64,000 bases of DNA from NCBI GenBank assembly GCA_900618425.1, contig UZAN01039461.1:25187-89186 (forward strand), given 5' to 3'. The stretch is from Echinostoma caproni. Lineage: Eukaryota > Platyhelminthes > Trematoda > Plagiorchiida > Echinostomatidae. Under the pieces are notes generated by a model that did not search any database, was not told the DNA's origin, and saw only the letters and a list, made by a program, of their open reading frames with translations. The stretch's first letter is position 1. Each line of letters opens with the position of its first letter. Shown here piece after piece: positions 10,262-58,999 of the stretch. The translations under genes were made by a program, and so were the position numbers.

Positions 10262-10400
10262 GAGTAGCGCTTAATACTGTACAGCTATTTTATCCACGTT
10301 GGGAGTCATCAACACTACAAACCCTAGGAGTCCATCGGGATTCAAATCAGTGCATGAGCAGTTGTTAACCCAACACCCCAACCACTTGGACTATGGAGGC
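10262..10400 (-). mobile_element. Degenerate tRNA-derived retroposon with hammerhead remnant
   Basis: Read on the minus strand, a box A-like AGTCCAAGTGGTT (plus 10377-10392 complement) is followed by a box B-like GATTTGAATCCCG (about 10337-10350) and then a hammerhead-like core (10287-10312). The core reads TTGATGA, a stem II region, then ATAAAAT in place of CGAAAC, followed by AGCTGTACAGT. The order box A, box B, ribozyme is that of the Sm-alpha-type retroposon of schistosomes (family knowledge). Core positions C3 and G12 are mutated, so it should be inactive. Confidence 0.55.
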
Positions 10401-13248
10401 TGGCGCTTGCCGCAAATCAACGCTAAATATTAAACATTCGTCCATCTCTTCTACTCTGGGACAGGGAAATAAAACTCGCTCGTTGAATTTTATTAATGAT
10501 AAGAATTGCCATGCCACAACATAGCAAAGTGTGGCGGAACCCAAAGTCACTGATTTGTTCGTGAATATAAAAGTCGCTTGCGATTATCGAGTAGTTAAGG
10601 TTACAATCAGGTTACAACTGGGAGGCAGGGCATTCACATTTCGCCCCAGATTTGCATTCCCCTGGACAACCTTTCGATTTACCTTAGCCCACTTCCTGAG
10701 AATTGAATGTACAACTACCTTGTCACGGAAGGGAAGAAGAATGTAAAAAAGAATGTATTGCCGTTGTCATGGGAGAAGATGGGGGTCCAAATCTCCGAGA
10801 TAATTTCGGTCTGGAATATACGCGTTACAGTTACAAGTCAACGAATCATGAGTAAACAATATTGATCAATCAAAAACCATGAGTTTTTACACAGGAGCTC
10901 GGTGATGAGGAGAATACGAACGGCAATTGGTTACTGCTTATTTAGCCAATAATATTTCTTTGTGAATATTATTTAACCCCCTTATTTCTTTCACTAAAGT
11001 AACCCCTACCTCTGTGGCTCTTGTACTGGTTTTGAGAGATTTTGGCAATTGATCAGCATTGTGGCTCCACGATTCGATTACAATTGTGATTTCAATTCTT
11101 GGTTCGCACATATTCTGAATAACAGAAAACTTTTGATGATTCTTTTCAAGGTGATTCGAAACTTTATTGTTCTACTGTCACGTATTGCGTCAAAAGTCCA
11201 TCGACAAGCGTGTAATCGGATGGAAGGGAACAGAGATGAAAGGATAAGAAGCAAATCTCTGTGATCGGGTAGTCACAAAAGATCGCACGTTTCCCCGAAT
11301 CCTACTGAGTTTTTCCTTTGTGTACACGTAGGTTTCAGGATTAATTAGAACGGGGTGGTCGGCTGCACACTAATCGGTTCCTGTATCCGGGAGAAGGATC
11401 AAATTAAAACCCTTTCAGTCAAATATAACTATTCCTTCGACAGTTACATAACGATAACTCTGTGTGTGTGCCTTGGGGGGGGGGAGAAGCTTCAACTTGA
11501 ACAGAGATAATGTCAAACCTTATTGGCATGAAAACTTACAATAGGATGATTAGATTCTGGTTCGATGGTAATGTTAACAAGGCGTGTTTAGCATGTGTGG
11601 GAAACAATTTCGTTTGTTTGATAACCGACTGACTTGATTCTCCCACCCAGGGAGAACAAATGCCTGTCTGTGCATGCCTAGTTTCACTTCCATTGACAGT
11701 TTTCAACGAATTCTTTTTGCACGGTTTGTTTGTCAAGGAATTTTTGTAACTAGATGAAGTCACATGATTGGTTTACAGAGTAAAAATCGTCATTTGATTA
11801 GGAAGAATGTAGAACTATCCGATGCTCCGAGATGCCATCGTGTCTGCGAGTTTTACGCAAGAAAGTCACTGATGTGCAGAGGTAAAAATCTTTGTTATTC
11901 GTTACGAATTGCTTCGCGATACATGGAGACCCAGGCTGAGGGAGGTGTAGAGTGAAAGAAAAAGATAGTTGTCCAGCCCCACGAAATTGAATGCCTTTTT
12001 ACTCAGTTTGAGGTAACCAATAGACAAAGGAAGCTTTTTCAAATGATTAGAAATCACAGAGTGGATATAGAAATCAAATCTGGAGACATGCATGCGATCG
12101 TCTCCAATTCCACTTTGAGTGAATTTAATAGTTCGATTCTTAGACCTACAAGTCCTTCATGAATCCACATGACATTAAATGGAGCGATCGTTCAATAATG
12201 AGTCTAACTGTATCTGCGTTAAAACAACTAAAACAGCATTCTGTTGTGCACCTTCAACAATGTACCTTTGGTAGCCTTATATTCCCTAGGTGAAATTTCG
12301 TTTCTAGCATTCGACTGGTGTAACATGTGCTGGCATCTGGCCAGGGGATAGCCAAGGCTGATGTTTTCCGTGATTAGATTCATCAGTTTAGTTTCAGTTT
12401 GGAGGAGCTATAAAGCTGAAAGCAGTATCTCCCTCTCTCTCCTAAATTTAGTAAGTGCGGAAGCTCATGTCATTAAATCATATTGTTCGTTATAATGTTT
12501 ATGAAAGTATTTTAGATTATTTCATTTTCAAGCTAATCCAATTCCATTTGTTAGTCGAAGCTTCATGGCGGAATGATGAGGATTTATCCGACAGCACCAA
12601 GAAAAACCACAGCATCGGATGAAAGATGGGGCTTGAAGATGGATTAACGCACACGTTCTAGATTTGGGGCACTCAGTGGAAATGAGAACCGCGTTTGGCA
12701 AATCATACAGGGTTCCTTCGAACCGATAAATATAAGTACGCTTCAAACGTCACTGGAGGCCGAATCACTTAACGTATCACTTTGCAATCCTGAGTTCGGT
12801 TCACGACAAAACTTCTCTCAAATCCTTGAGACTCCTATGGTGAACAGTTGATTTACCTCACCTGTGGATTGAATTGCTTGAGAAACAATATACACTTGTT
12901 TCGGACCCTTGGATGATTTTATCTTATCAGGGTAATTATGATGGGACATACTGAACAGACTCATCTGTTTTGACTTACCGTTTATCATCATAGTTTTCGA
13001 TTATACCCTGATCCGAAGTTGAATTAATCATTGTTATTTCCTCTTGTTCTCCGTTCTATTCAGTGACCAGTTTAGGAACCGGTGGCTGTTTACTTTTACC
13101 TGTCCCTCGCTTAATTTCTGGTGTTAAAGTTAATAATATTATCGTCTCGTGCATCATATTGTATTAATGTCTTCGAAAACTCGCTTTCTGTATTTTTCAT
13201 TGATTCCCAGTATGAGAGTAGTGAAGGATGTGACTAAATTATATCAAA
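10401..13248. other. Unassigned DNA
   Basis: No gene was recognised. There is a short G-run near 11476-11484 and scattered short ORFs without motifs. The 12528-12746 minus-strand ORF was inspected and has no recognisable domain. Confidence 0.35.
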
Positions 13249-13607
13249 GATTTTGTCGGGTATAGGAAAAATGAAGCATGGATTGAAAAGCTAGGAAACA
13301 CTGGATAGCTGTTTCGACCTAGTTGGGTCTCATCAACAGTGCGAATCCATCGACCCAAAGGGGGATCGAACTCATAACCTCACAGGTGGAACACAATTAT
13401 AAACGGAGGGTAAATTAAAACCGATTTGGTCCCCTGTCCGGTGTTCGATTGGGTAGTATGCCTGAGTTCTACCCCTGAGGTCCCCGGTTCGATCCCCGGT
13501 TGGGTTGATGGATACGCACTACTGATGATACTCAGTCAGGTAGAGACAGCCGCCTAGTATTTCCTAGAATTTAGTTCACGCTTCATTTGCAGTGTACACG
13601 ACAAAGT
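13249..13607. mobile_element. Inverted-repeat (foldback) hammerhead retroposon, 359 bp
   Basis: The outer sequences are inverted copies of each other. The left end GTCGGGTATAGG...AATGAAGC...CTAGGAAA.ACT matches the complement of the right end (CTAGTATTTCCTAG...GCTTCATTTGCAGTGTACACGAC). Each arm carries a hammerhead: a minus-strand one at 13298-13342, and a weaker plus-strand remnant around 13516-13560 (CTGATGA at 13522-13528). Box B-like sequences occur in both orientations: GGTTCGATCCC at 13486-13496 on plus, and GAGTTCGATCCCCC complementary to about 13363-13376. The outer arm sequence is shared with the element at 43359-43537. Confidence 0.7.
13298..13342 (-). ncRNA. Hammerhead ribozyme, one core substitution
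   Basis: Minus-strand reading: helix I strands GCACTG and CAGTGT pair at all six positions (one G-U). The core is TTGATGA where CTGATGA is needed (C3 changed to U). Helix II is GACC/GGTC closing a CAACTA loop. CGAAAC follows. Helix III is ACAGCTAT, one mismatch from self-complementary, before the cleavage triplet ATC. The C3 change is expected to abolish activity, while the helices are still largely paired. Confidence 0.65.
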
Positions 13608-16600
13608 CCACTGTATAAATTCCTATATGTTGCATTTCAGAAAATTGTTGTACATAGCTGAATGAGAGCTCCTCAAAATTAATAATCAGTATCCAGTTCG
13701 CTTACTATTTATTAGATAAATGGAGCTATAAGGAGAGAAAAATTTCTTGTCCTTCATTTTCTTGGAAAAGCTTTACATTTGAATTAAATTCAACTTTCAT
13801 TTATATAGAACTCGATGCTACTAATGAACAGTGACTTGAGATCAACTATCCTTATTCGGACTGGTAATTCTTTAAAACTGAACTTTCACGTGCTATGCTC
13901 TGTCCATTTAGTTTACCACGCAGTCGTTACACTCTCATTAGCGAAAGTATCAGCAATGCACATACATCGAGTCAATCGGACCACTAACTCCGGACTCTGT
14001 GTGTGACAGCGGAGAGTAGTGCGCAAAGTGGAAGTCTCAATGAACCAATTTTATTTAGAAACAGAACGAACAGGCGCCCATGTCTGTTTGTCGGTCATCA
14101 TCGAGATTTCTGTTGCATACAAAATAAACTTGTTTGATGTCTAATGTAAAAAAGCATACATGCTTGAGCTATTCTCTCAATCTGCCAAATGCTAAGAAAA
14201 CAAACTCCAGTGGAACTGGAACGAATCTGACCTAAGTATCTTTTGTGTAATATTATTACAAGACGCCAATCTCGATAAAATGGTAGCTTTATCCAGGCAA
14301 AAACAAAATCTAGTTGCGTTAACTTATCCACTTGGTTACACCTAATCTATGCAAAGGTTTTCTGAGTGATTAAAAATGCAAGTAAATTATTAGAGAAGGA
14401 AGTCGTTTTTTCAAACGTACAGAAACACGTTGGAAACAACAGAAGAAATCAAACAAACGTGATTTATTTTCGAAGAGACTGTCTGTTCTGTTATTGAGTG
14501 TAAACCCCGGTTATGATGTGATGCAGTGGTTCGAAATAAGAACTGCGAAAAATTGGTTCTTTTGGAGTCCGAATATCCCGCACATATAGGCATTACATAG
14601 ATGCGTTTCCTGCAGCAGAAATGATATTCATGAACGGTTTGTATTTGATGAAGGGCAAAAGGGGCTAAGAAGGTTGTTTTATCGTTGTTGAGATTAGTAT
14701 TTGTTTGTGTTATTTTGTGCCTTTGACGATGACCCAAATGGTCGTCTGTGCAGCCGAAACACAATAGCTTGAGCACACGAATGAAATATGATTGTGACAG
14801 TTTTGTTTTATATGAATATTCAAGCACACAGGTCTGTGTATTTTGTGGTTTGTGTGGATCTCAGTTTATGTAACCTCCACATACACAGAACTGGTTGTTT
14901 GTAATCTCGCACGAAATTTCTAAAGTAATAAATAACTCACAGGTCTTAATATAAATGCTTCTGTTGGTTTTCCGATTAAACTGTCAGGACAAACACTTCT
15001 CCTTAGCAGAACATTCCATCCTGAAGACGGGGGCAAGCATCTAAGCTCACTATATTAACTCCCGGAAGACATGTGTCTGAAACCCCTTACCGTCCCTTAT
15101 ATTTGTGTTCCGATGCGACTCTCTGACTGGTCGGTTCCCCTTTTTGGCTAGTTGCATGTACGATTACAAAAAGAAGTGAAGAAAAGAATGAAGTATTTAA
15201 CGTTGTTCTCGTATTGTCTTTTTTCACGCTGAACTTTTCAAACTTTATCCCGATGCCAGAACCAGAAACTTTTCAAAATTTTCATGGCTCATCCTAAAGA
15301 CAATTATTGCAAAGCTGTTCTGCTCAGAGTCAGGTGAAAATTATTCCAATGAAATTTCCAACTTGATTATCTTCTGAGTACAATTAAACTAAAATAAATT
15401 TTGACAGCAAATCTTCAAAACTGGAGCACAAACCCGTTCAAAGTCCCGTATTATACGGCTAAAACGTTATTTAATCTCATGAAGATCCCATATAGACCAC
15501 TATTTCCTATTGTTTCATTTCTATGAAGTAATCAATGTAAAGACTCATTGAACTTGATGGAGAACACGAGAATGTGTTGATCACCATCATCAGTGACCAC
15601 ATTGTTTTTCTTCTTTGCTGAAATCACTTTAGATCCAATCGACATGGTTTAAATTCATGTTTATATTGGTAAAATCTCATCTCTTGAATCTCTAACAAAT
15701 CTGTAATGATGTAGTTTCATCAATAACGTACTATGTAAATAGTTTCCCCATAAACGTTTTCGAGCAGTCATTTCGCTAAGCTCAATGGGACATTAAGAAG
15801 CGAATACGTAACAGTGATCACAAACGCAGGCGAACGCGCACCAGGGAATCTGCTCAAAAAGAATTAGCTAGCTTCTGAGTCATTTATAGATATTGGTGCA
15901 GGCGCGCGTGTCTGTTGGCTGGGTCAGTCAGTCATCCGATGGTGCGCACATGTGAGCATGTTTGTGTACACTTGACTGGCTGAGATGGTCACGACAAAAG
16001 CGCATCAGCGCCATGAGAAGCCCTATTTACGTCAGCGTTTTGGTAGATGCTGCGGTTTAACCGCGATTCGCGACAAAATCTGATGATTGTTCCTAGACTT
16101 TCTCCAAAAACTTTTATATTTAAATTACTCATTTTCAAACACTACCTACTTTCGTTTTATTACCATTGGTATATGATGACGACGGAAACAAAGCTTCATG
16201 GTGCTTAACTTGCTCAGAGACATTTCCGTTATGTTAAAAAGGTGCTGACAAAAGTATTATCATGAATTCTAGCTAAAATGCTTAATTTAAACTTACCATT
16301 TAACTTTTCATTCATTGTCCTACCAGGCATAGAGCAATTTTGTTCGGCCTAGTTGTAAGCGCATCCAAATAAACAGTGGCAAATGGATTTAATGAGACCA
16401 CTGTCACAATGAGCTTGTAGGTTTTTTACTACTGCTAAAGCGTACGGTCGCTCCTTTTTAACTGTGAACGGATACGCGGTGTTTATGGGACAGTGAAACC
16501 TTATTTTCCACTTTCATTGTTGCACTTCAAAGGTTATATGAGGAGATTTTCGATTGAACTTATCCTAGGTGGCAGGTTGTCCAGCATCGCTATATGTCGC

Positions 16601-18999: not shown

Positions 19000-19014
19000 C
19001 AGCACTTCTTAAAT

Positions 19015-19212
19015 TTGCATCCTGGTCAAACTATTATCTCGCACGAGGGTATGAAAACCGTGACCAGAAGACTGGACCATAGAAGTCGAGTTAGGCTTTC
19101 TGGATGGGAACCTGAGGATCAACATAATCGATGGTTAGAAACACTGAGTGACATTGTCGGGTGTCGCAAACGATTGCTCTTGTGCACATTCTCAGTTTCC
19201 TTGCAAACGTAG
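19015..19212 (+). pseudogene. RTE ORF2 C-terminal fragment
   Basis: The frame carries GMKTVTRRLDH, VRLSGWEPEDQHNRW and LETLSDIVGCRKR, ending at a TAG. This is the terminal block of trematode RTE ORF2 proteins, where an MK..L..L, R.RLPGWGPRD, WLETL.DMA order is typical (family knowledge). Only the last 60 or so residues survive. No pentamer tail follows the stop. It is a 5-prime-truncated dead copy, plus-oriented. Confidence 0.75.
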
Positions 19213-26896: not shown

Positions 26897-28440
26897 ACTG
26901 CCGGAATCTAGTTCGATCCACATTTAACTCTCAACTATTCGTGAGTAAAGCTATATTGAGTTACAATGATCCTCCTTCAGACGTTATTTTCATACTGGTA
27001 GGCATTGTGGTAAAACACATCTCTTCTATGAGAGACGGCTTGAAGTATAATGCCCGGATGTGTCGGTATATAAAAACTAAACTAGAGCAAAACTCAAGTC
27101 TGGTGCTTCCCTAATGTCGAAGGGGCTGAAACAGCGAAGAACTGTGTGTGTGTAGGAACAGTCTGAAGTATGATCAATGCGTATAAATATCTATTATTCC
27201 ACACGACTTCTTCTAAGTGGCGGTAAGTGAAAAGTGACCAATATTGACCGCTACAATCCCCCTGTCTACTGGATAAGACGTAACACTAAAAATTTAATGA
27301 TAGGACTGCAACCAAACAAATTTTGTTGGGTGAAACAGAAAAGTGGCGGTCATTCTGAAAACCTTAATCAATTAATGGTGGGGGTATCAAATTGCGTGAA
27401 GTTTAGCGCGAGGGTTAAAGAGTTAGAACTTCTTGAACGGACTGAACTCGGGGTGAATAAAAATGCAGTCTTATGTATATGGTTATACAACTGCTTTCAA
27501 TAAGTGAAAACAACTCGTATTACCGGTTCTGAGTTTTATTCACATGATAATTGGTATGTTTTAATAAAACTATCTAACCCCTTGAGATACCCAATTAGAT
27601 TCCCTCACACTTCAGTAAACGCAAGCCAGTCACCCCAGTACGTTTATCCGGGTTTTAAAGTCCTAATGAGTAGCTGCCAGTGCCTGTTGTGGATTTCAGA
27701 CTGGTCAGTGGTTGACCGTATTTCATGTGAACTTCAGATCCGCTGGTTTGCTGCATACGAACTCCATATCATTGTGTCAGTGGATTTAGCAATCGTATCC
27801 AGAATAACATCGGTTCGGACCCAACGTTCCTGCACATTGTACTTTATTACTTTTATCTAAAACGTCGATGTGCGAAGTCAAGTTGCAATCAACTACTCCC
27901 GTCTCTAATGAAAACTGCATATGTTATTGACCATAAACGGTTAGATCAACAACATTCAGTTAAATGTCAAGTGAGCGATGAAGTTGAATCAAATGAAAGA
28001 TAAGCCACCAATGACATCACCAAAGGTAGATAAGTAAAGTTCCAACCACCTTTTTGATTTCAACAAGTAGGTACTTCTTAACTGTCACTCCCTCACACTT
28101 TAAAAGTGGGAGGCTATGATAAGCCTTATTTATTTGTTCCAAATGGATTCTGTCGGAAATGTAATCTCAGGAGAGAATGAGACACAGTGGTAAAAAGTGG
28201 AATATCTATCAGAATAATCATGACAGACGTTTTAGAAAATGTCGTACATCTTCGAGTATCGAGTAAGCGATAAGTACAAAACTAATGAATTTGTATTGTG
28301 TTGTATTGTACTGTATTGCATTTTATTGTATTGCATATAACATAACATAACACCTAAGACAAAGTTCACTTGTTCCCCTTTATCTGTTGGTGAGTAAATG
28401 TGCAAGGGTGAATTTTGGTAAGCGTTTTTTGAAGATGAAC
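26897..28440. other. Unassigned DNA, pentamer-like repeat at the right end
   Basis: No supported gene. The plus ORF at 27504-27860 (118 codons) has no domain I recognise. A degenerate TTGTA/TTGCA array with CATAA units lies at about 28288-28350. Confidence 0.35.
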
Positions 28441-29438: not shown

Positions 29439-29863
29439 CTCGATGAAAATGCGATGAAAATGCATTCAAATGCGATGGAAATGTTTGTGATAACCGACAA
29501 AGAGCACTGGACAGCTGTTTCGTCCTGTTTGGGACTCATCAGCAATGCTTACTCTTTGTGTCCTTCTCAGTACTATACCTTTTCAACAGAACAGGAGTAA
29601 GGGTTTGAATTCCCTACCCGAACGTTCGCGGTTCGCGTCCTGGCAGGGACACGAAAAGTACGCACTACTGAGTAGTACCAACCAGGACAAAGCAGCTGTC
29701 CAGTGCCCTTTGTCTGTTATCACAAACATTTCCATCGCATTTGAATGCATTTACCACGTGGGGAATTAATGATCTCCCAATGAGCGAAACCTACACCCAG
29801 TACCACCAAGGGTACCTGGTGTCTCTGAAAAATCGAATGAGCTAATGCAAACTTGATGCTTTA
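29439..29863. mobile_element. Inserted segment containing a foldback hammerhead element, flanked by a direct repeat
   Basis: The segment sits between two copies of GATCATTAGGAA (29427-29438 and 29864-29875), inside a CR1-like RT frame that would otherwise join as a PND...FAYMPN reading. Its core is an inverted repeat with 60-bp arms, 29458-29517 and 29693-29752, differing at two positions. Each arm runs into a hammerhead: a near-intact one on minus at 29504-29548, and a degraded one on plus at about 29667-29711 (CTGAGTAG, then CAAAG instead of CGAAAC). A box B-like CGGTTCGCGTCC lies at 29629-29640. The part from 29753 to 29863 is outside the palindrome and unassigned. Confidence 0.75.
29504..29548 (-). 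ncRNA. Hammerhead ribozyme, all core positions present
   Basis: Minus-strand reading, 5-prime to 3-prime: helix I strand GCATTG; core CTGATGA; helix II GTCC/GGAC around a CAAACA loop; CGAAAC; a self-complementary helix III ACAGCTGT; cleavage triplet GTC; and the second helix I strand CAGTGC, pairing at six of six positions with one G-U. This is a type I layout with minimal helix III, known from schistosome and other animal hammerheads. Such ribozymes often need a dimeric or tandem context to cut well. Activity is inferred from sequence and is untested. Confidence 0.82.
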
Positions 29864-30340
29864 GATCATTAGGAATGCTTAAACACTGCTGAAGGTGCTT
29901 GAGAATAGCTTTTTCAGTAAACTTAAAAGCTGAAGATATAGACGTTATGGGATGAAAAGGTTTGCAGAGGTTAGAAGATTTGGATGCTTTGGAGATTTGT
30001 ATGATTGGAACCGGCCTCCAACAGTCTGGGAGAGTAGAAGTGTAAAGAGATTCATTTAAAATTAAGGTGATTGCCGCAGCTATGAAAGCGGGACCAAATT
30101 TGAAGAGGGCTGGAGGTAAATCATCCGGGTCTGTAGTGGAAGAATTGCAAATATTTAAAAGTTTTAAAACATCACAATATGAAAATTGTTCCACATCACA
30201 AAAAAATGTATGGCGAGTACGTAGGAAGAATGTCCGACTTTTGCAGGAAAGCGGCATTGAGATTGTCAACATAAACATTGAGCTTTGACCGTACTTTCTT
30301 CCTTCCGCGGAGATGTCTGATGTCGGTTTCCTGTCCTCGG

Positions 30341-30520
30341 GCGGTGGTGCCCAAGTGGTTATGTCACCAAATTGTGACCCAGAAGTCCCGGGTTCAAATC
30401 ACTCCACTGCCGCCCGTCTTCCCTATTTCTGTATTTCCCCATTCAGCCTCTGTATGGCCGCAGCTCCCTTCCTGAAAGCTGACTGTACCTCTGCATATTT
30501 AATAAATAAAACGGAAGTAA
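30341..30520 (+). mobile_element. tRNA-derived SINE, family A copy 1
   Basis: A box A-like GCCCAAGTGGTTATGTCACC (about 30349-30368) and a box B-like GGGTTCAAATCAC (about 30390-30402) form a tRNA-related head. The head is followed by a unique body with CTTCCCTATTT, TGTATGGCCGCAGC and CCCTTCCTGAAAGC, and an A-rich end with AATAAATAAAA. A second copy at 48175-48356 matches along the whole length, and a partial third is at about 55764-55864. No hammerhead is present, so this family is distinct from the ribozyme-bearing retroposon. It abuts the truncated end of the CR1-like relic to the left. Confidence 0.78.
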
Positions 30521-30820
30521 AAAGACATTTGTCAACAGGACAGAAGGGCATTTGTTTTTGTTGATCAAAGAATAATGCATTTAATCTATTTATTTCAAAT
30601 ATTGTAAGTCTGGCCAAATAGCTGACAGGTGAAGAATTTACAGAAAGCATGATATAAGCCGTTCGAAACTTTAAACGTTTCCGATTTCAAGGCCGTTCAA
30701 AACATATAGTTCCTAACACTAAAATCTAATAATTAACCCCAAGTAGTGGTTGGCATAATTTTTTTTGAAAAGAACTGTTAAACGTTACCCTATCTACACA
30801 AACTTACTCATTGTAGGTTC

Positions 30821-30896: not shown

Positions 30897-32399
30897 TGCT
30901 GATTTGTTCATAATGTAAACTTATGCCAGTAATCTTCTCATTATCTATCACATAACCCTATTTAAGCATGCGTCTGAGTTGTAAAAAGATCAACAGACTC
31001 CGTGGGAATCGAATCTACACACGTGCGCTTCTTACTTTTTGTAGAGACCAATGCAGCCATGCAGACAACATTGCCCGTTCCTCATTTTGGTCACCCCCTC
31101 AGGAAGTAGTATGAAGACCACCAATTAGAATTTTAGCCATCTGCCTCGACTGTTTGTTTTTAAAAGCCACCGAAATCCATCGATCCAAATCTTGGTTGGC
31201 ATCTATATCGAAGTTCGTATCTCAACGCGACTAGTGATCTCGTAATCCATTATCTATCGACCGAACTAATTGGATAACCACCTGCCAGTTAGTATGGAGT
31301 GGCATTCTATCAAACCGCACGTGCTTTGTTGGTCAAGTAGCTGACCAACTGCAGTGAGTGATGGAGCGTACATTTTGTAACCCGTGTCTTAATGTCTTTT
31401 TTATCTCCCTTCGCCTCATAAAGCATTTGACCCACGTATTATCTCACTGTTTGATGGGCCTCTGGATTTTTCCTCAGTCTTTTTCATGAAGATATTCAGC
31501 ACTTTCAGATACCAGCAAGGTTCTGTCAATAGATGTAGGTGTACACCGGGAACGCTTGTTCACCGCTGCATTAAAAATATCCAGTCTTGGAAATAAAACT
31601 AAATATGATGGCATGATGATAGTTGATAAGGTCGAAAAAAGAGAACTAACTCAACATAATAACTATTTTGTGCACAAGTATTTTCAAATGATTTTTTGCT
31701 GTTAAGTATTTAGTCACTTTGATTATCAGTTCAGGTATCGTTAGCAGCACATATTTATATCGAGTAAATAAAATATTGAGTACGGGAGGGGATTAGCAGT
31801 GTGTGTTCCTTTGTTCTCGAGTAAAAGTCCGTCATTGTGGTGGTTGTGCTCATTTTGATTTGGACCGACCATCATCCTTCAGGCTTCATCTGCGCACACA
31901 ATCCTCATTTCATTTGCTCAACCATACATTCGGGAAGCACTGGAATCGGGTTTTCCTCTGACTGGAGCTCTTCAGTGGTGCATAACCAGCTTCCTGTTCG
32001 GGCTTGTAAATCTGGACTCGTTGCATGAGAGGGGCGTGTGTTACCATGGTATTGCCCATTTCCAATTGATGATGACCAGAATTACCCATCCAATTTTTTT
32101 TATCTCTCACCTTTGGAGGTATTCGGGATTTCTTTTGACCAAACAGTAGACTATGCATTAACTGCAATTGGATACCTTCCATCAAATCAAGTCTTCGTTT
32201 CGGTCTACTGTCCAAATGAAACATGCTAGGCTCAAATCTAGCCTAATAATAAATAAAAAAAATTAATGCACTTCGTCACTACGTGAGAATATCGATTCAG
32301 AGCCTAACTGTTAAAGTAAACTGTATTACATAATTTCACAATATAGAAATCGCCGTCATTGTCAGTTTGACGAAAGCATCAAGAGGAATTCTCATCACA
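30897..32399. other. Unassigned DNA, includes a possible retroposon ending in an A-rich tail
   Basis: No supported gene. The stretch at about 31830-32265 carries opposing ORFs without motifs and ends in AATAAATAAAAAAAA (about 32249-32264), which could be the tail of an unclassified retroposon or a processed insert. No second copy was seen in the window. Confidence 0.35.
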
Positions 32400-32600
32400 C
32401 GATGAATTTTCGGTGTGTAATTAGCGAAGAAAAAGTAAACTGCAAAGCTAGAAAGCACAGCTGTACAGCCATTTTCACCTGATTGGATCTCAGCAGCAGT
32501 GCGACCCACCTGGATGTCCAACCCGGGACCTCACATATTGAAAACAAGCCCACATAAACCACTTGACTGCCGGGTCGTTGGTCAAGTAGTTTCATCTCAT
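32400..32600 (-). mobile_element. Hammerhead-type tRNA-derived retroposon, single unit
   Basis: Minus-strand order: box A-like GCAGTCAAGTGGTTTA (complement of 32555-32570), box B-like GGGTTGGACATCC (complement of 32512-32524), hammerhead remnant CTGCTGAG...GAAAA (complement of 32472-32496). A 3-prime tail follows, GCTTTCTAGCTTTGCAGTTT then ACACACCGAAAATTC. It matches the outer arm of the foldbacks at 13.2 and 43.4 kb (GCTTTCTAGCTTTTCAGTTC, ACACGACGAATTC). It therefore shows the family in monomer form with promoter boxes upstream of the ribozyme. Core substitutions make the ribozyme inactive. Confidence 0.68.
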
Positions 32601-32943
32601 ATTTGCGGGAATGGTCAATTTAGATTAGTCGCAGTAAATTCTAAAATTTAGTGTGAAATTCATCTGCTCCAATGCCCAATACTCTCATTAGCCTGCTACA
32701 TGTTTTCCCATCAAGATTTGGCCAAAACCTCAATGCTTTAGCCACAACTCATAGTCCTTTAGCCTGGACGCACAACTTGAGCCATACCACTGTAAGTGAG
32801 TCAGATCAAAAGGTATTGGAATATTCTGGGTTCAACAAATAGTTACAAAAATTGTTTTCTACAAATGTTGATGTTGCAACGGTTGGCTAAGAAATGAGGT
32901 GTGTTGGTTGTATGCATGTGGTACACATGTTGACTGGAGAAGA

Positions 32944-33443
32944 TTTAACCTATGTGTTCGTTTCGTCAAACCACTGGACGCATCTCGTGCAGCTTCAGTA
33001 TTTTCGTGTAACATGTGATACCCCTGTGAGTAAAATTCCCACGTGTATCAGAAACGGTATGTTGTTTTGCATTCAAAAGACCTGAAAAGAATCAAAATTA
33101 ATGCCACAAAAAAGTAAATGCTTACCTTTCCTTATCTCCACTCAAAGTGAACTTGATGGCAATGGGAGTACTAAAGGAGTGTTCTTTAGGAACGTTGTTT
33201 ATTATCTTCGAGTTGTTAACATATACATCTCTCATGAACACTCTAAGTGGAGATACGGAACGGTAAGCATTTCCTTTCTCGTGGTATCACTTTTGGATTC
33301 ATTTCAGGGTTTTTGAATGTAAAACAACGTACCGTTTTTGATGCATTTGAGATTTTTACTCACAGTAGTATCACGTATGACATCGAAACACTGAAGCTGT
33401 ACGAGATGTGTCCAGTGGTTTGACGATACGAGCACATCGTTTA
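32944..33443. repeat. Large foldback, arms of about 206 bp
   Basis: Left arm 32944-33149 and right arm 33236-33443 are inverted copies at roughly 80% identity by eye, separated by about 86 bp. Shared landmarks include CGTCAAACCACTGGAC, GCAGCTTCAGT/ACAGCTTCAGT, CTGTGAGTAAAA, AACGGTA.GTTGTTTT and TATCTCCACT. Both arms contain a GGTAAGCATTT string in the complementary orientation. No terminal motif of a known transposon was recognised. It could be a foldback/MITE-type element or a local inverted duplication. Confidence 0.75.
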
Positions 33444-33537
33444 AATCTCTGCGCCGTTTACACTAAACCAAGACGTTACTATTTCCAAGCTTAAACTTTA
33501 TTCTTCACCGTAAACTTAAATCAAAAACTAAATTCAG

Positions 33538-38275: not shown

Positions 38276-38615
38276 TGTGATAGAAGGTGGTACAAAGAGA
38301 GTCCTGGCTAGTGAACGAATCAAGAATAGGGCCCATCCAACCAGGTGCGCAAATGTAGCGGCTGGAAGTACTTCGCGAGACAATGTTGACTACCACCCGA
38401 AACGAACGAATCGACAATTACAGCCCAACAGACAATCCGCAGCTAGTCAGAAAGATATTCACCGAATACCACAACATCGGCGAATATTTTTCGGATGGTA
38501 GTTGACATTGTCTCGCGAAGTACTTCCAGCCGCTACATTTGCGCACCTGGTTGGATAGGCCCTATTCTTGATTCCTTCACTAGCCGGGACTCTCTTTGTA
38601 CCACCGTCCATCACA
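38276..38615. repeat. Near-perfect foldback, 127-bp arms, 86-bp loop
   Basis: Left arm 38276-38402 and right arm 38489-38615 are inverted copies with about 8 differences (roughly 94% identity). The shared core runs from GGTGGTACAAAGAGAGTCC, through ATCAAGAATAGGGCC, CCAGGTGCGCAAATGTAGCG and GCTGGAAGTACTTCGCGAGA, to CAATGT. No flanking target duplication or known transposon terminus was found. ORFs on either arm mirror each other and are not taken as genes. It would fold into one long hairpin if transcribed from either strand. Confidence 0.9.
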
Positions 38616-41600: not shown

Positions 41601-42780
41601 TATGTTTTCCGAATATTGTTTCAAGGTTTCCGGGTATCGATTCAAGTTGATGCGATAGATAAAGAGGATCCAGTGTTTCAAATTTCAAATTGTCTCAGTA
41701 TCGTTTCAAATTGTCTGTTTGACCTCATCCGAGTAACCTGGCTCTGATGTTGGTGCTTCTGTGGCGAAGAGGTGGAATCGGCGAGAGTCACACAAATGAG
41801 ACGGGAATCGGTAACAACGATTTGTATATCGATGGAGCATGATCAATTGGTGTCTTATTGCGGCGGGTTGAGGAGCAGCTCATGAATTCTATTACAACAT
41901 CATTCGACGGGAGTAAGTGATGACTCAAGCGTTGAAAACGCGCATGATCCATCGGTTTCAGCCGAGCATGGCCCGATATGGATTTTCTGGGGATGGAGGA
42001 TGAATACACACACACACACAGATGCGTGCGCGTACTAACAAGGCAAACAATCAAAATATGTCTTGGGAGTCGGAGCTTATTTGACCGAGGCACGTCTCAC
42101 TCACAGCCGTCCCCCCCCCCACCGCGTCGACGGGAATTTTAACCTGCATAGTGGTCATCGAGACATCGCTGGGAGGCTTGATCAGCACGTGGGCCTGGCA
42201 GCGCTGACGGTGTCAACGGCACAACTTAAAGTGATACTGAGACATCTAGAAATTATATTCGGATAACCAGAATTGCAAAAGGGTATAGTGTTCGAACGTT
42301 TGTTTCTTGGTATTTAAGCGAGTAACTGCAATATCATGAGTGTTTTTGATTTGAACATTTTTCTGACATCGACGAACATCGGAGATTATCCCACCCTGAA
42401 AGGCTGTCTGACCTGAAACACGAAAAACTCTATGCATGCAATATAATTAGATACAAACAAGATTATCTAAAGAAATCACCTATCAAGGACGCTTGCTCAC
42501 AACCTTTTAAGTACTCCGAGATTTTGTACATCTGAGATGGAAATTGGAATACATGATGTACTTTCCTGGAAGATCATAATTAAACATTTTTTGAGCCCAA
42601 CCAACTGAATAATGTTGAACTAAACTGAAAATCCTTCAGAATTATTCTTCAGCACAGAATTTTGAACTCACCTGGTCTAGTAAATGAGAATTAACAAATG
42701 GTTTAGAGTTTTAGCTATCCGCGCAGTCTATCTATCACATAAAATAATAATATGGAATTGTCAATTCAGTTCACCCCTGA
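38616..42780. other. Unassigned DNA
   Basis: No supported gene. Minus ORFs at 39568-39804 and 39698-39991 overlap in different frames and carry no recognised motif. AT-rich ATTAT/ATCAT simple sequence lies at 41383-41450, an (AC)n tract at about 42005-42021, and a C-run at 42110-42120. Nothing else stood out. Confidence 0.35.
42005..42021. repeat. (AC)n microsatellite
   Basis: A short uninterrupted dinucleotide tract. Confidence 0.8.
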
Positions 42781-42945
42781 TATGAGCTGGTTGGCACAGT
42801 GGTAACACACATGCCTTCCATGAAATGAGTCTGGGGTTCAAATCCCGAACGGGACGGTTGATATGCGTTACTAATGAGCTCCGATAAGAGCGAAACTCGA
42901 GTCTTCTGAGTGTATGGTTGACTTGAGGAACGCACGTGAAGGTGA
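42781..42945 (+). mobile_element. Hammerhead-type tRNA-derived retroposon, divergent subfamily
   Basis: A box A TTGGCACAGTGGTAA (42791-42805) and box B GGGTTCAAATCCC (42834-42846) precede a hammerhead at 42862-42912. A tail including GTGAAGGTGAATTCC (about 42936-42950) recalls the family end. The spacing of the two boxes (about 30 bp) fits a tRNA-type internal pol III promoter. The ribozyme helices differ in sequence from the other copies, marking a separate subfamily. Confidence 0.65.
42862..42912 (+). ncRNA. Hammerhead ribozyme with alternative helices II and III
   Basis: Core CTAATGA (G5 changed to A), helix II GCTC/GAGC around a CGATAA loop, CGAAAC, then a fully self-complementary helix III ACTCGAGT followed by the cleavage triplet GTC. 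Helix I pairing (GCGTTA against TTCTGA) is poor. The G5 change should inactivate it. Helices II and III are perfectly paired although their bases differ from those of the copy at 29.5 kb. Confidence 0.65.
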
Positions 42946-43358
42946 ATTCCGAACCATGGTCAATTTTAATCAATCAACATCAATTATCCTACAACATTAC
43001 TCACAAGTATCTATGAGTTAAATTCGCATTGTTTAGAAATTCGAGAGTGATGCTCCGGAATATTTGGTGGTGAAAAAGTTCGACTTTGATGGACTCTGAT
43101 GGAGTAGTGTACTTCTGGGTGGACGTATGGAAGAACAAGCTGACCTCATGTTCCAACCTTCAGTAGTAGCTCCGTGACGGTTTATTGTTCTAATGAAGCA
43201 GACGGCGAATGGTGACCCAAGGTTCTCAAAGCTGTTAGAAAAGATGGCTTATACATCACAACGTGGAACGACTTATTTCTTCGGAAGGTCAACCGGTGTT
43301 CAACCTTTTCTCCAATGACAACAACACCATGCGTACCACTAATTCCAATGAAACCTCA

Positions 43359-43537
43359 GGTTAATTCGTCGTGTATATAGCAAATGAAGCGTGAACTGAA
43401 AATCTAGCAAGCATTGGACAGCTGTTTCGACCTGGTTGGGCCTCGTCAGCAGTACGAATCCATCGTCGGAGCAGCTGTCCAGTGCTTTCTAGCTTTTCAG
43501 TTCACGCTTCAATTGCTATATACACGACGAATTCACC
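43359..43537. mobile_element. Short foldback hammerhead element, 179 bp
   Basis: Arms 43359-43424 and 43471-43537 are inverted copies (AATTCGTCGTGTATATAGCA, GAAGCGTGAACTGAAAA, CTAG.AAGCA.TGGACAGCTG) with a few differences. The 46-bp centre holds most of a minus-strand hammerhead. The outer arm is the same sequence as in the 13.2-kb foldback and in the tail of the 32.4-kb monomer, but promoter boxes are missing. This looks like an internal-deletion derivative of the longer foldback. Confidence 0.8.
43411..43455 (-). ncRNA. Hammerhead ribozyme, all core positions present
   Basis: Minus-strand reading: helix I strand GTACTG, core CTGACGA (position 7 is free), helix II GGCC/GGTC with one G-U around a CAACCA loop, CGAAAC, helix III ACAGCTGT self-complementary, triplet GTC, helix I strand CAATGC. 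Helix I has one C-A mismatch and one G-U. The core is complete, so activity is possible but untested. Confidence 0.75.
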
Positions 43538-44289
43538 TTTGAAAATTAATTAAATCCTCTATTACGCAATTAAAGCCAATGAAATCTGTTTATTGTATCG
43601 AGTCTTAGAGATCATTTACTAGCTCATTCACTGTCCATTTTGGAACCCCTGTGAAACTGTTTGGAGTCTGTCAACCAGGTGAGTTCATACCAGTAGAATA
43701 AATTTCAGTCCCATCTACAAATTGTAATCCAGTGTACTCAGCAAATCAGAGAAATTAAAAAAATAGGATGAAATCTTATTTTAACTTTACTCAAATAGTG
43801 TTTTATTTAAAAGTAATAAACTGGTTGTAGTTGACTAAGAAGTTGTTTTTAATCGATCGACCAGGGTAAGCGGGGGTATAAAAGCATTTTAGGTCCTTCA
43901 GGCACCTTGGTTTTAGATAAGTCCTAATTCACATGTTTATACTATTTCCTTATGGCGAGTAATGAGACAATGCATAGACACAACAAAATTCACAACTCCA
44001 TCTAAATATGTCCACAATAAATTGTAATTTAATCGGGGTGCAGTTTACCGTTTCATTTATACATTGTGCTCCGACGATTTGTCCTCGTCTGTCTTCACGT
44101 ACATCGGGGAGGTCCATCAGATCTTTATAAACTTATAGAGTAATGCAATGAAAACGGAAAACCGAGTAAAGTTTACTTTATAGAAGGTGGTGGTAGGGTA
44201 AGGACGAAAGAACTATAGTGCAAAAGAAGATTGAAAACACTACCAGCGAGCCCACTTAAGGTTTGTGCCTTTCTTGATTTCAAATCGGA
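43538..44289. other. Unassigned spacer
   Basis: No gene or element was recognised. The sequence is AT-rich. Confidence 0.3.
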
Positions 44290-45725: not shown

Positions 45726-46324
45726 TTTTATCTTATTTGTCATGGTGAGTGGTGCAACCGATCAGTTGCACTGGAACACAAAGTGCTCAGCTCCGTGTTC
45801 CAGTGAGTATTATAGATCAGGAATCTAGTCAGTATCCGATTAGTGGATTGTTTCACCCACAATAACTTTCTAACGCGGATAACACAAATGAGTTAGAATA
45901 GCTTCAGAAGGTTTTCGGAGGAAGTGGCTGAGATCCCCTCATTTGTACGATCTGACCAACTGGCTTAGTGGTCTGTCCTTCTGCCTGTGATAAGCGTGCG
46001 TCTAAAGACGATGTGTGATTCAATAAACCCACTGTTAGCTGAAATCTCTGGCTCTCTGGTTCATGAGATGTTGAGAATCAACACAAATCCAGTGGTTAAG
46101 CGATCCGCGTCTAAAGCTGTATTAAGATAAGCAGGCAGATTCCAAAATTGAAGTAATGCGTTCCATCGTTGTTCAACAACAGCTGGAATTTATTTAGGCC
46201 GGGCGTTTCATGTAGCCTGCTAATGTAACGACCTTAGCAACTTGCCACTCTGTTTGAGGGTGAATTGTGTTTATGTCTCACTGGACCGTTTGGTTCATGG
46301 CATATGTATTTTCCTGTCTTACAG
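45726..46324. other. Unassigned; possible upstream part of the RTE relic
   Basis: No gene is visible. A box A-like CTGGCTTAGTGGTCTG (about 45959-45974) lacks a convincing box B. The EN domain of the RTE element at 44.3-45.7 kb would be expected here on minus but was not recognised. Confidence 0.3.
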
Positions 46325-46485
46325 TTTGTCAGTCGGCCCTCTGCACGGCGAACCTCCTGTCTGTCGATGACGGTTCCAGCCCACACCGAGACTTGGCTTA
46401 CATTGTGTTATCTGGTGTATTCGTTCATGGGGGACATCCTACTGCACACACGAGCCCAAGCATATCACTAACGTTAAGTTTTTGA
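46325..46485 (+). CDS. Candidate terminal exon, unknown product
   Basis: An acceptor with a good pyrimidine tract (GTATTTTCCTGTCTTACAG) is followed by an open frame, CQSALCTANLLSVDDGSSPH then RDLAYIVLSGVFVHGGHPTA, ending in a TGA. The alternative frame is also open, which lowers confidence. No domain was recognised and no downstream AATAAA was seen nearby. Confidence 0.22.
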
Positions 46486-48174: not shown

Positions 48175-48356
48175 GGTGCCTGGCCAAGTGGTTAGGTCAC
48201 CAAATTGGGATCCGGAAGCCCCGGGTTCGAACCGCTCCACCACTGTCCCTCTTCCCTATTTTGTATTTTGCCAGACAGCCTTTGTATGGTAGCAACACCC
48301 TTCCTGAAAGTTAGCTATACATTTGTATATTCAATAAATGAAAAAGGAAATAAAAG
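48175..48356 (+). mobile_element. tRNA-derived SINE, family A copy 2
   Basis: Box A TGGCCAAGTGGTTAGG (48181-48196) and box B GGGTTCGAACCGC (48223-48235) match the tRNA consensus better than in the copy at 30.3 kb. The body (CTTCCCTATTTTGTATTTTG, TTTGTATGGTAGCAAC, CCCTTCCTGAAAG) and the A-rich end with AATAAATG are colinear with copy 1. Identity is roughly 75-80% by eye. The tRNA of origin is not certain; the variable-region length suggests a class II-like or altered head. Confidence 0.8.
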
Positions 48357-50239: not shown

Positions 50240-50297
<58 letters not shown>

Positions 50298-50311
50298 GGA
50301 TAGATAGCTAC

Positions 50312-50370
<59 letters not shown>

Positions 50371-50626
50371 TTGGATGGATATATCACTAGAAAGATAGAT
50401 AGACAGATAGATAGATAGATAGATAGATAGACATATAGATAAATAGACAGATAGTTAGATAGATATTCAGATACATAGATAGATAGATAGATTTATAGCA
50501 TAGATAGACAGAAATATGCATAGATATATAGATAGATAAACAATCGATGGACCATAGATAAATAGACAGATAGGTAGATCGACAGATAGATAGGTAGATA
50601 TATAGATAGACACGGATAGATAAATT

Positions 50627-50670
<44 letters not shown>

Positions 50671-50679
50671 TGATTGATT

Positions 50680-50734
<55 letters not shown>
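50240..50734. repeat. GATA/TAGA tetranucleotide array, about 495 bp
   Basis: Long runs of TAGA units are interrupted by CAGA, TGGA, ACAT and short non-repeat blocks (for example near 50371-50386 and 50520-50560). The array ends abruptly against the truncated CR1-like copy to the right. The minus-strand ORF of repeated YLSI over part of it is a by-product of the repeat. Confidence 0.95.
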
Positions 50735-55763: not shown

Positions 55764-55864
55764 GTTCCACCTACTGTCGGCTGCGAAATTCTGTGCTTCT
55801 AATAGTTATTGCTACAGTTACTCGGCCCTTCCTGAAAATTTACTGTACAAATGCTCATGCAATG
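55764..55864 (+). mobile_element. SINE family A, partial 3-prime copy
   Basis: TTCCACCTACTG and then GCCCTTCCTGAAAATTTACT, GTACAAATGCTCATGCAAT parallel the 3-prime half of the copies at 30.4 and 48.2 kb (CTCCACTGCCG..., CCCTTCCTGAAAGCTGACTG, TACCTCTGCATATTTAATAA). The head with box A is missing or unrecognisable. Confidence 0.45.
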
Positions 55865-57124
55865 GAAAGATGTCAAGTGCTCCTGACAGTTATTTACACT
55901 CAAGTTCACCATACGTCGCACCTTCCAAAATCCAAACAACTTAAATGTATTTTACCCACGGAACGGAGTCATCTCTAAAATGTTTCCACCTTTTAGTTAG
56001 ACAACCCTAATGTTTGCCATTACCTTGGTTTTCTTAAAAAGTCGATCCTATTTGGCAGCCGGTAAATCCCTTAGATTGGATGATCTGACCGACTCGTTGG
56101 TTGATAACGAATTGCTACACTGAATAAGTATGAATTCGGTTTATTTCTGTTGTTTCTGTTCTATGGTTTGCATCTATTAGAAAGAAACACAAGATTTTGG
56201 AAAATTCCATAGAACCTAAATCCACAAAGTGCTCTTTGGCTGAATTTATTTTCTTTCGAAAAGAGAGTACAAAGTGTATATTAGAAGGTGGAGTTAATAA
56301 AATTAATATTATTATTAAATTAATTAGTAAAATTTTGGTTTTGAGTTCAACAGGAAAAGATGCTATCCGACCGTGAGACAAAAACTTGATGATGTCAATG
56401 ATACTGTTTACTTATGGTACATGCAAATCCGTGATTAATCTGAGTAAGTAACGAAATAGAAATTGTGACCTCCAGATAAGTAATGAACTTTCGTGCTACT
56501 GTCGATCAGATCCAATTCGAAGTAGCTCAAAGGTGGTTGAAATACTGGTGTAAGAGTGTGTGTGTGTGTGTGAGGTAAGTAGTGACCACCAATTGAACAA
56601 AGGTGTATAGTGAACGTCGAAGCGTACCCGTCAGGTACGTAGATGATTTTGTGGGTAGACTAGCTGACTCGAGGCACAAATAAGGCGACAAAGATGTAAT
56701 AAACACTGATGGTGCAAGGGGCGATTCAACTTGTTAGTACTCATATATCTTTCGATTGGTTCCTTTGCAGGCATTGGTTCACATCGCGGTTGAAATAAGG
56801 CAAAACACACTTCCAACAAATATTTATCTTATTAAATTAAATTTATCATCAATTATTTCTCGCACTGATATCTCTATATTTTCTATGTAAAGCATACAGT
56901 TTAAGCATGATTTCAGTGTAGATATTTGCTCTAAGCTTGCAGCCTGAAGTTGGAACCTTGTCTCACTAAGCCATCTATTTGTTTTTATTACATGGGAAAA
57001 CTGATATCTCGCTGTTTGTTCAATGCTTCCAGCCCTTTTACATGCTGGTCTCTGTGGTCGTACTTTCTGGGAGGGGCATGGGGTTGAGGGATGGAGTGTA
57101 CAGTGGTTATATTATTCCCCTCAG
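55865..57124. other. Unassigned AT-rich DNA
   Basis: A (TG)n tract lies at about 56557-56571. No gene was recognised. Confidence 0.3.
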
Positions 57125-57179
57125 TTTTGATCCAGCTGATATGGTGCGAACTTGGTTTAAAAAGTCACAAAAGAAGTAA
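57125..57179 (+). CDS. Candidate short terminal exon
   Basis: The acceptor ATATTATTCCCCTCAG leads into a short frame, FDPADMVRTWFKKSQKK, and a TAA, with AATAAA at 57193-57198. Acceptor, stop and polyadenylation signal in the right order make it notable. The short length makes chance likely. The frame is also open upstream to 56979. Confidence 0.22.
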
Positions 57180-57199
57180 TGAAAATTGATGGAATAAAT

Positions 57200-58474
57200 T
57201 AATGGAGATTTTAAATTTATCCTGAATCGATGTGGCGTTTGAAGACCTTCGTAATTTGTCTACGTTTCAGCTTCCAAATATACACTCGTCGAATAACGTA
57301 CTGCATCGTCTAAGTCTTTGCTTGACCTGCTTTTTTATTCAGTTGTAGATTTTTCGTAGTTCAGGGAATTATAGTGACAGCATAATACAAAATGGACTCA
57401 TCAGGAATTAAAAAATAGTAACCATGGTTTGTTTAGATTCAGTCACAAATTACGATTAGCTCTATGTGAGAAATTCTCTATCTCGTCTTGGTTCGCTGGA
57501 AGATAACTTCCATCTAGGTGTGATGTGTCTCTTATTCTGTGTTCTACTGTTTGAGTTATATAAGTCATTTGAGAAATTTTGTAAGTCTATCTAGTCATTT
57601 CCCACCGACTACCTTCGGTTTTTAGCAAGTGACGTCTTTAAAATGTCGCACGATTTCGGTACCTTGGGGACTGTAATACATTTTTTCTGACTCAGGTGTG
57701 ATTCCTACTGGAGTAGATATGAGTTCATCAGGGTGCAGATTGAATACGGGTTATATAAAAGATTTACTGCATTGATTACTATGTTTAAATGCTGCAATTA
57801 TCACGAAAGGGTTGGGCAACATGTGCTTCTCATGGGACAGTCTGAAACTGTTTTATCAAAATAGCTGCGTTACCATGGGATTGTCGGTTAAGATGCTGGA
57901 AAAATTCGGACGCGAATGGTTTCATGGCGCCATTATTAGTTGGAGAACCATGCTTATATGTATATGATTAAAATATTGTTAAATATTTCCGGATAAAGAT
58001 TACTACAAAGTGAGACATATTTAGTGATGCTAATCGACCACCGATAATGATTACGGATGCTTACCAGCATAAAAAGCTCAGGGATGTGTAAGAGTCGACT
58101 GAAAGACTGCATGCGCACAGAATGTATTAGACATACATATGATTAAAACAGATGATACTCTTTCGGAACATAATTTGGCCATTTCTTCTTTCTATTCCTA
58201 GATTTCGTCGAAGAAGTGACTTGCAGTAACATCCGATAACGCACCAAACTCGACCATATTCCAACAGTCCTTATATCGGGCTTTATATAGACATTCGAAT
58301 ATTTTGAGAAAGTTACCGTTATTTCTTTTTGTTTTTTGTGGGAGACCAAGAAACCAGAAAAGCGTTTCACAAACTGTGTGAAATACTACAGGTAAGTGCA
58401 AAACGTTTACTGGATCACTGTGTCGCCGAAAGCAGTGGTAACTGATGTTTACGAATTATGGGCTTATCAATAAA
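57200..58474. other. Mostly unassigned; minus ORFs at 58.14-58.40 kb
   Basis: Two overlapping minus frames at 58143-58401 follow an acceptor-like CACTTACCTGTAG. One (TVCETLFWFLGLPQKTKR, then ECLYKARYKDCWNMVEFGAL) looks protein-like. It might follow the candidate at 58475-58705, but the splice phases favour the other frame, so no exon is called. Confidence 0.22.
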
Positions 58475-58720
58475 TTAGCTACCAGAATTCACCGAGACCA
58501 CGGTCACCGTATTTGTCCTCTGATGAGGGTGTCCCAGAGCTTGCGCGCATTCTGCGTACTGCATACATGTTGCAAGCACTAAATCGAGGATATCTGGTGA
58601 TGGGCTGAAATCTTTATAGACAAGCATTCTCTGTCTATCTTCACTGGCTTCCTCAACGCAGGATTCTATACCGATTCTTGTAGCCGTTGTTGCATGCTCG
58701 ATCATTTCCGATAGACTTTC
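58475..58720 (-). CDS. Candidate coding segment, unknown product
   Basis: On minus an open frame reads SKFESLSEMIEHATTATRIG, then IESCVEEASEDRQRMLVYKD, then FSPSPDILDLVLATCMQYAE and a tail ending in a TAG. The composition is coding-like (acidic helical, no low complexity). Several weak GT donors lie near the end and the upstream acceptor is ambiguous. No family was recognised. Confidence 0.28.
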   Translation of the reverse strand, partial: ESLSEMIEHATTATRIGIESCVEEASEDRQRMLVYKDFSPSPDILDLVLATCMQYAECAQALGHPHQRTNTVTVVSVNSGS

Positions 58721-58929
58721 AAACTTACTGCTGTTGCTACTTGAGTGATCAAAAATCCTTTAATATAATTACCCTCGTGCTAACAGTTGTTGTTTTTGTC
58801 GCAGAACAACTTTGTTGTTTTTGTTATGACGTACTGCTATAGTCTTTAGTCAAAGACGAAAAATAACGGTCTCATCGTTAGCAAGTGTGTCAATTCAAAA
58901 CCGGAGGATGTGGTTGATATGGGAGTCCC

Positions 58930-58995
58930 TACAGGGACACCATCAGTATAGCACGCACTGCTGATGGATTCCAAAATGGACGAAATAGCTGACAA
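58930..58995 (+). mobile_element. Hammerhead retroposon remnant
   Basis: GCACTGCTGATGG, then ATTCCAAAATGGAC and GAAATAGCTGAC, align with the family pattern (helix I, CTGATGA, helix II, CGAAAC, helix III). A9 is changed to G, and helices II and III are damaged. The preceding GGGAGTCCCTACAGGGAC may be a relic of the box B region. Inactive. Confidence 0.5.
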
Positions 58996-58999
58996 GTTT

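Follow-up and report, generated by a model that had tools for sequence, protein, structure and literature searches.

The window analysed here, a 64-kb stretch of contig UZAN01039461.1 from the trematode Echinostoma caproni (all coordinates are window positions), contains a dispersed set of predicted hammerhead ribozymes. Judged from their sequence, the elements that carry them are tRNA-headed short interspersed elements (SINEs) of the schistosome Sm-alpha/Sj-alpha kind, with a type I hammerhead. A first-pass annotation had placed hammerhead cores or remnants at 10.3, 13.3, 29.5, 29.7, 32.5, 42.9, 43.4 and 58.9 kb, and a type I hammerhead core or remnant was recognised at all eight places. Three copies score above the gathering score of the Rfam family Hammerhead_1, at 29548-29504(-) with 54.3 bits, 43455-43411(-) with 38.4 bits and 13342-13298(-) with 36.6 bits, and these three show the RF00163 type I fold, with three stems, the CUGANGA and GAAA cores and an opening at stem I. 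The remaining copies lie below the Rfam gathering score and are degraded at the other places named; the 42.9-kb copy reaches 23.8 bits with the Rfam family HH9, under its gathering score of 52.

Two full-length copies, 13516-13560(+) and 31937-31981(-), and two 3' halves, 43459-43539(+) and 26995-27112(+), had gone unnamed in that annotation. A profile of the whole unit, run over the window with nhmmer, returned ten copies and some weaker places. When profiles were built without each copy or sister pair and then run on the 64 kb, each copy was regained at an E value of 9.4e-6 or better, except when the 42.9- and 31.9-kb copies were omitted together, and the best E value on the reversed window was 0.34. 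With the ten full-length copies as its training set, a covariance model necessarily regains all of them (E ≤1.4e-11), and its next-best place has an E value of 0.15. The stretch 13949-14011(-), which reads like a 5' hammerhead half and is weaker in other leave-out profiles, is a probable further SINE remnant.

The copies fall into lineages that differ in helix II, and the helix II readings of the first-pass annotation were recovered at 29.5 kb (GTCC/GGAC), 43.4 kb (GGCC/GGTC, with one G-U), 13.3 kb (GACC/GGTC) and 42.9 kb (GCTC/GAGC); helix III is ACAGCTGT exactly at 29.5 and 43.4 kb, ACAGCTAT at 13.3 kb and ACTCGAGT at 42.9 kb. Lineage B (GTCC/GGAC, ACAGCTGT) is represented by the hammerhead at 29504..29548(-), in which all 14 of 14 pairs and the core are intact; it lies in a SINE copy at 29441..29589(-), the left arm of an inverted pair whose right arm is a SINE copy at 29596..29759(+) with a degraded hammerhead at 29662-29706. 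Lineage A (GACC/GGTC) comprises a copy at 13250..13396(-), whose hammerhead (13298-13342) carries a C3-to-U change and one helix III mismatch, and, head-to-head with it, a copy at 13434..13613(+) with a degraded hammerhead (13516-13560) and an exact box B (13486-13496). To the same lineage belong a copy at 43358..43467(-), whose hammerhead (43411-43455) has one mismatch in stem I and G-U as the second pair of helix II, and its head-to-head partner, a 3' half copy at 43459..43539(+). The 42.9-kb copy (42770..42941(+), hammerhead 42865-42909) belongs to lineage C (GCTC/GAGC, ACTCGAGT), of which it is a damaged member, with a G5-to-A change in the core and, as read by hand beside the 31.9-kb copy, a lost 3' strand of stem I. 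A second lineage C copy lies at 31918..32100(-), where the hammerhead remnant (31937-31981) reads GCTC/GAGG, and a third remnant at 26995..27112(+) consists of a head piece and a hammerhead 3' half (ACTCAAGT). Three further SINE copies are degraded: one near lineage A at 32401..32579(-) (remnant 32458-32502), and two with U-A at helix II pair 2, at 58872..59033(+) (remnant 58955-58999) and 10239..10399(-) (remnant 10274-10318).

In its tRNA-like head the 42.9-kb copy has, by the generally known promoter motifs, an exact box A (42792-42802) and an exact box B (42835-42845), and box B matches number 20 in the window against 10.5 by chance. No tRNA gene was found in the window by ARAGORN, nor by Rfam at 42740-42880. 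Similar tRNA-like heads are also present upstream of the ribozyme in genome copies, from which the distance between the start of box B and the ribozyme was read as 30, 32 and 30 nucleotides (nt) in lineages A, B and C. Among 30 lineage B loci, a stretch common to at least three others extends on the 3' side to +60 in 29, to +80 in 24 and to +100 in 9, with 6 to 8 loci staying similar to about +200; upstream from the ribozyme start it extends to -20 in 28, -140 in 21, -160 in 16 and -260 in 8 of 29. This profile indicates a short dispersed unit that stops rather abruptly on the 3' side and at varying points on the 5' side.

The ten full-length window copies align ungapped over 45 columns, and the 14 pairs of the fold thus give 140 cells, of which 115 (82.1%) are paired, compared with 73.1% after shuffling (0 of 500 shuffles as high) and 19-42% when the partners are slid. 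Two-sided changes affect 15 cells against 6.3 (0 of 500). As the copies are related, covariation was further tested, in place of R-scape, which the first-pass annotation had proposed, by simulation along a neighbour-joining tree, with (1) positions redrawn or (2) site rates kept. The 115 paired cells compare with 77.5 and 91.1 under these two nulls (p 0.0005 each), and the nulls are also exceeded by the number of further pair types (p 0.0010 and 0.0020) and of pairs with a two-sided Watson–Crick change (p 0.0090 and 0.0105). Taken by helix, the excess holds for helix II (p 0.0050 and 0.0085) and helix III (p 0.0055 and 0.0110). Helix II pair 2 (columns 15:26) ranks first of 861 column pairs and is paired in all ten copies, as U-A in four, A-U in three, C-G in two and G-U in one.

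In the assembly from which the window comes (426,516,399 bases in 12,689 contigs), short mobile elements with a predicted hammerhead number in the thousands. A pattern with helix II pair 2 left open has 1,769 matches, against none in the control; in the first 100 listed, GACC/GGTC accounts for 51 and GTCC/GGAC for 43, and 95 are paired at this position compared with 48.2 expected if the two ends were independent, the mismatches being A-C (2), C-A (2) and A-A (1). When C or G was forced on the 5' side of helix II and the 3' side was left free, 1,268 matches were found (control 1); G stands opposite C in 77 of the first 100 listed, GCTC/GAGC (25) and GCGG/CCGC (20) are the leading full helices, and all three inner pairs are formed in 59. 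Among the matches listed, the second pair of helix II is most often A-U, U-A or C-G, the partner matching in each, and four lineages lead, with helix II complementary in each: GACC/GGTC (A), GTCC/GGAC (B), GCTC/GAGC (C) and GCGG/CCGC (D). The joint signature of GCTC/GAGC and ACTCGAGT has 249 matches (control 0), which bears out the view that the 42.9-kb copy represents a separate subfamily; lineage C differs from the others in helix III and stem I as well. Lineage D was seen in the genome loci L195-L204 and not in the window. It has ACCGGT as helix III and, by our own reading, GCATGC/GTGTGC as stem I; its flanks hold no clear tRNA head, and the sequences on the two sides of the ribozyme seem complementary to each other, as though they prolonged stem I considerably. 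The annotation's statement that helices II and III change together is therefore true of lineages C and D and not of A and B, which have the same helix III, ACAGCTGT: with the inner six bases of helix III left open (2,072 matches, control 0), CAGCTG is the most frequent form in A as well as in B among the 100 matches listed.

An Rfam search of the genome scored 74 of 66,429 first-look candidates; all 74 are above the cut-off and all belong to lineage B, a bias that most likely stems from the first look, which is guided by the Rfam consensus. A pattern specific to the window family found no match in IMG/VR or GTDB contigs. A loose core pattern in IMG/VR gave at least 120 stretches with 124 core matches, 70 of which pass the helix test; these candidates were set apart because their helix III, loop included, has at least 12 bases, compared with 8 in the window family.

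Among 36 copies of lineages A, B and C, chosen in part by helix II, while the other two helices of A and C played no role in the choice, 91.3% of cells are paired compared with 80.4% after shuffling, and 52 cells have a two-sided change compared with 18.1 (0 of 500 in both cases). Differences between lineages account for such changes at pair 6 of stem I, pairs 2 and 3 of helix II and pairs 3 and 4 of helix III; lineage C is distinguished by the change in stem I (A-U for G-C) and by those in helix III. Within lineage B, 71 of the 74 Rfam matches (53 distinct) were compared, L182, L188 and L190 being left out for insertions or deletions, and no covariation was found (88.5% paired against 88.3% shuffled, 177 of 500), which argues that inserted copies drift. 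This suggests that selection on the fold, if any, acted on source elements and not on inserted copies. The earlier proposal that the fold was selected during the history of the family is thus upheld for the paired differences between lineages, which go beyond the tree nulls, and fails for the copies of lineage B, so that it can apply to source elements only.

These observations probably reflect a family of tRNA-headed SINEs in which at least three lineages (A, B and C) were founded only by source elements with a foldable hammerhead, helices II and III being paired in each. A source copy would be transcribed by RNA polymerase III from the tRNA-like head, and the RNA would fold into a hammerhead with a short palindromic helix III, cutting best when two copies pair through this helix, either as two molecules or as two units of a tandem transcript. 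The enzyme of a long interspersed element (LINE) might then copy the cut RNA, or unit-length or circular RNA made from it, into DNA. If lineages arose solely from source elements in which the hammerhead had remained foldable, each lineage would acquire its own paired helices II and III, and inserted copies would then decay unconstrained.

Several points weigh against founding by foldable source elements. The independent two-sided changes are few, about five pairs over the splits between A, B and C, whatever the number of copies, and the 36 copies have no excess of pairs with a two-sided change (7 against 6.2, 182 of 500) or of further pair types (16 against 16.0, 314 of 500). In the window, the same two counts are not extreme under shuffling (7 against 4.6, 41 of 500; 18 against 15.8, 80 of 500), stem I alone does not reach significance under the tree nulls (p 0.053 and 0.116), and an extended outer stem I pairs no better than chance (p 0.11). 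The helix II columns of the 74 Rfam matches were fixed by the way in which these were found, and of the first 100 matches with C or G forced, 80 pair at that position compared with 73.2 expected, an excess kept small by the dominance of one base on either side. Box A matches show no excess in the window (16 against 14.9 by chance), and the cutting of a single transcript would part the head from the tail and should hinder copying. Two other results tell against the recovery of the copies by profile: the remnant at 13949-14011(-), kept outside the counts, reached E 2.4e-6 in a run in which the 58.9-kb copy scored 5.7e-6, and when the 42.9- and 31.9-kb copies were both omitted, the profile of the others gave no match for the first and E 0.073 for the second, as befits a distant lineage.

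The failure of that joint omission also lends some weight to an unlikely alternative, that A, B and C are different SINEs which captured the hammerhead from different sources, so that the paired differences would not be changes within one family. The heads and tails of the lineages are strongly different, and lineage D has no recognisable tRNA head; nevertheless, A, B and C have the same order of parts, the same distance from box B to the ribozyme and a common stem I (GCACTG or GCACTA, and the strand that pairs with it), and each lineage C copy is joined to the rest by the profile once the other is included (E 1.5e-8 and 9.4e-6). It is far less probable that template switching in small hairpins, a principle described in the available part of PMC8794818, copied one arm from the other, so that changes were compensated in the absence of function. 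Long inverted copies abound in the genome, and two of the five long self-inverted stretches in the window lack a hammerhead; against this, helix II has four pairs, lineages A and B differ at one of them, G-U stages are seen (at 43.4 kb, and one U-G) with no replacement of a whole arm, and in lineage B pairs are broken by mutation at the frequency given by shuffling. Mere inheritance from one ribozyme, with pairing never selected, agrees with the absence of covariation among the 71 lineage B copies and with the finding that nine of the ten full-length window copies have a changed core or one or more unpaired helix cells, and is scarcely credible because the two-sided changes between lineages exceed the tree-keeping nulls and recur in many genome matches, which contradicts it at the lineage level.

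Helix III bears on the form in which the ribozyme may have been active. Read as a hairpin, ACAGCUGU leaves no loop and the two outer pairs alone can form within one molecule, so that the inner two pairs can form only between two ribozymes. The inner bases are self-complementary in every case, AGCU in lineages A and B (ACAGCTGT), UCGA in C (ACTCGAGT) and GCGC in the Rfam consensus (ACGCGCGT), which points to a dimer. Palindromic stem III and cutting by dimers have already been described, as far as the available text of PMC3088659, PMC6155905 and PMC7229834 goes. Selection may accordingly have kept the dimer form in particular; more tentatively, and with rather less than even confidence, the hammerhead may have been needed for the spread of the SINE, each founding lineage keeping a foldable ribozyme with helix III pairs formed only in a dimer of two transcripts or of tandem units.

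Three window pairs stand head-to-head with their tails outward, at 13.3/13.5, 29.5/29.7 and 43.41/43.47 kb. The 29.5/29.7-kb pair forms one inverted repeat with 116-nt arms (29458-29573/29637-29752, 85%), and the 43-kb pair has arms at 43358-43431/43465-43538 (91%). Genome orientations were counted by eye among neighbours at most 600 bases apart within one set of up to 100 places. The matches listed include ten head-to-head pairs (C451, C472, C492, C508, C453, C462, C485, C552, C737 and C1075), two tandem (C445 and C1230) and none tail-to-tail; two more head-to-head (C88 and C466) and one tandem (C138) lie between matches of the pattern with helix II pair 2 open and that with helix III open. 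The 30 lineage B loci hold nine head-to-head pairs in seven loci, one tandem and two tail-to-tail (both in L148), and one of five lineage C loci (L231) has a head-to-head partner. With the lineage A leader as bait, all 20 of 20 loci carry an adjoining hammerhead match; the 17 separate loci include three head-to-head pairs, two tandem and no tail-to-tail, and 14 have no head-to-head pair within 600 bases. Close pairs are thus mostly inverted and few are tandem, and the tandem ribozymes delimiting a unit by which a retrozyme is recognised were not found as the rule among them. Tandem SINE pairs about 246-363 bases apart occur in L247, L249, G000:C1230:16369-16758 and G000:C445:132583-132867, where the hammerhead could cut a transcript into unit-length RNA.

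Self-primed fold-back of the first complementary DNA strand would give the head-to-head orientation. A palindromic family with a shared centre was considered and dropped, as the centre in L225 and L228 reads as the 5' leader of the lineage A SINE itself. Near-identical arms were likewise given little weight as proof of paired birth, since lineage A copies are often identical anyway; in a four-point comparison by hand at 13 and 43 kb, the arms group by place, weakly. Long inverted repeats without a hammerhead occur at 32941-33448 and 38276-38615, the latter probably young, with arms 94% complementary over 127 nt, and their existence shows that the inversion process is not special to the hammerhead SINE.

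Other features of the window include a second tRNA-headed SINE of about 175 bases, whose copies at 30348-30522 and 48181-48355 are 80% alike. It has motifs resembling box A and box B, an A/T-rich end and no hammerhead seen, and offers a natural control family. Named protein matches of two LINE fragments are all from Echinostoma caproni (55-66%), most matches bearing no name, and those of a third fragment have turtle names only. A LINE fragment at 29766-30278(-), which matches an Echinostoma caproni protein at 64%, adjoins the 29.5-kb pair, and several lineage B loci (L135, L138 and L139) have the start of the flank next to this pair in common (GTGGGGAATTAAC). An ATAG microsatellite of 495 bases, about 123 units, lies at 50240-50734.

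Hammerhead SINEs have reportedly been known in schistosomes since 1998, the SINE-like Sm-alpha and Sj-alpha elements of Schistosoma being credited to Ferbeyre (1998) and Laha (2000). The window elements resemble these in being tRNA-related SINEs with a type I hammerhead above the Hammerhead_1 cut-off, a short helix III and a very high copy number, and differ in having at least three lineages with different paired helices II in one genome and in helix III, which is AGCT or TCGA where the Rfam consensus has GCGC; the sequence comparison with Sm-alpha covers the ribozyme, through Rfam. The available part of PMC2770079 gives more than 38,000 hammerheads in S. mansoni and 5,000 in S. japonicum. Active minimal hammerheads occur in elements related to Sm-alpha, and three of five W-element candidates cut when tested (PMC8490949, in its available part). 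The same part of that source describes W-element hammerheads of S. mansoni as minimal type I ribozymes with a very short stem III and several weakly similar families, as here, in satellite-like elements with copies on autosomes, whereas the window SINEs are dispersed and often head-to-head. Animal retrozymes, as portrayed in the accessible text of PMC7229834 and PMC7761336, are likewise non-autonomous, with a type I hammerhead whose weak helix III favours dimers; they are repeats from which circular RNA is made and which apparently have no promoter, in contrast to the tRNA-like promoter head and the mostly single or inverted, rarely tandem copies found here. The hammerheads of Penelope-like elements also have a minimal helix III, as short as the ACCGGT of lineage D (PMC7761336, as far as its text was available). 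This comparison covers helix III. In the accessible text of the best-ranked open-licence papers, no report was found of lineage-level covariation or of head-to-head pairs in hammerhead SINEs.

Several lineages whose stems differ and yet remain paired, together with free drift among the inserted copies of lineage B, provide evidence at the level of the source elements on whether the ribozyme helps hammerhead SINEs to spread, and the comparison of lineages names the RNAs whose cleavage could be tested. On the strength of the sequences compared, the paired stems that differ between lineages suggest that the hammerhead fold mattered while these elements spread.

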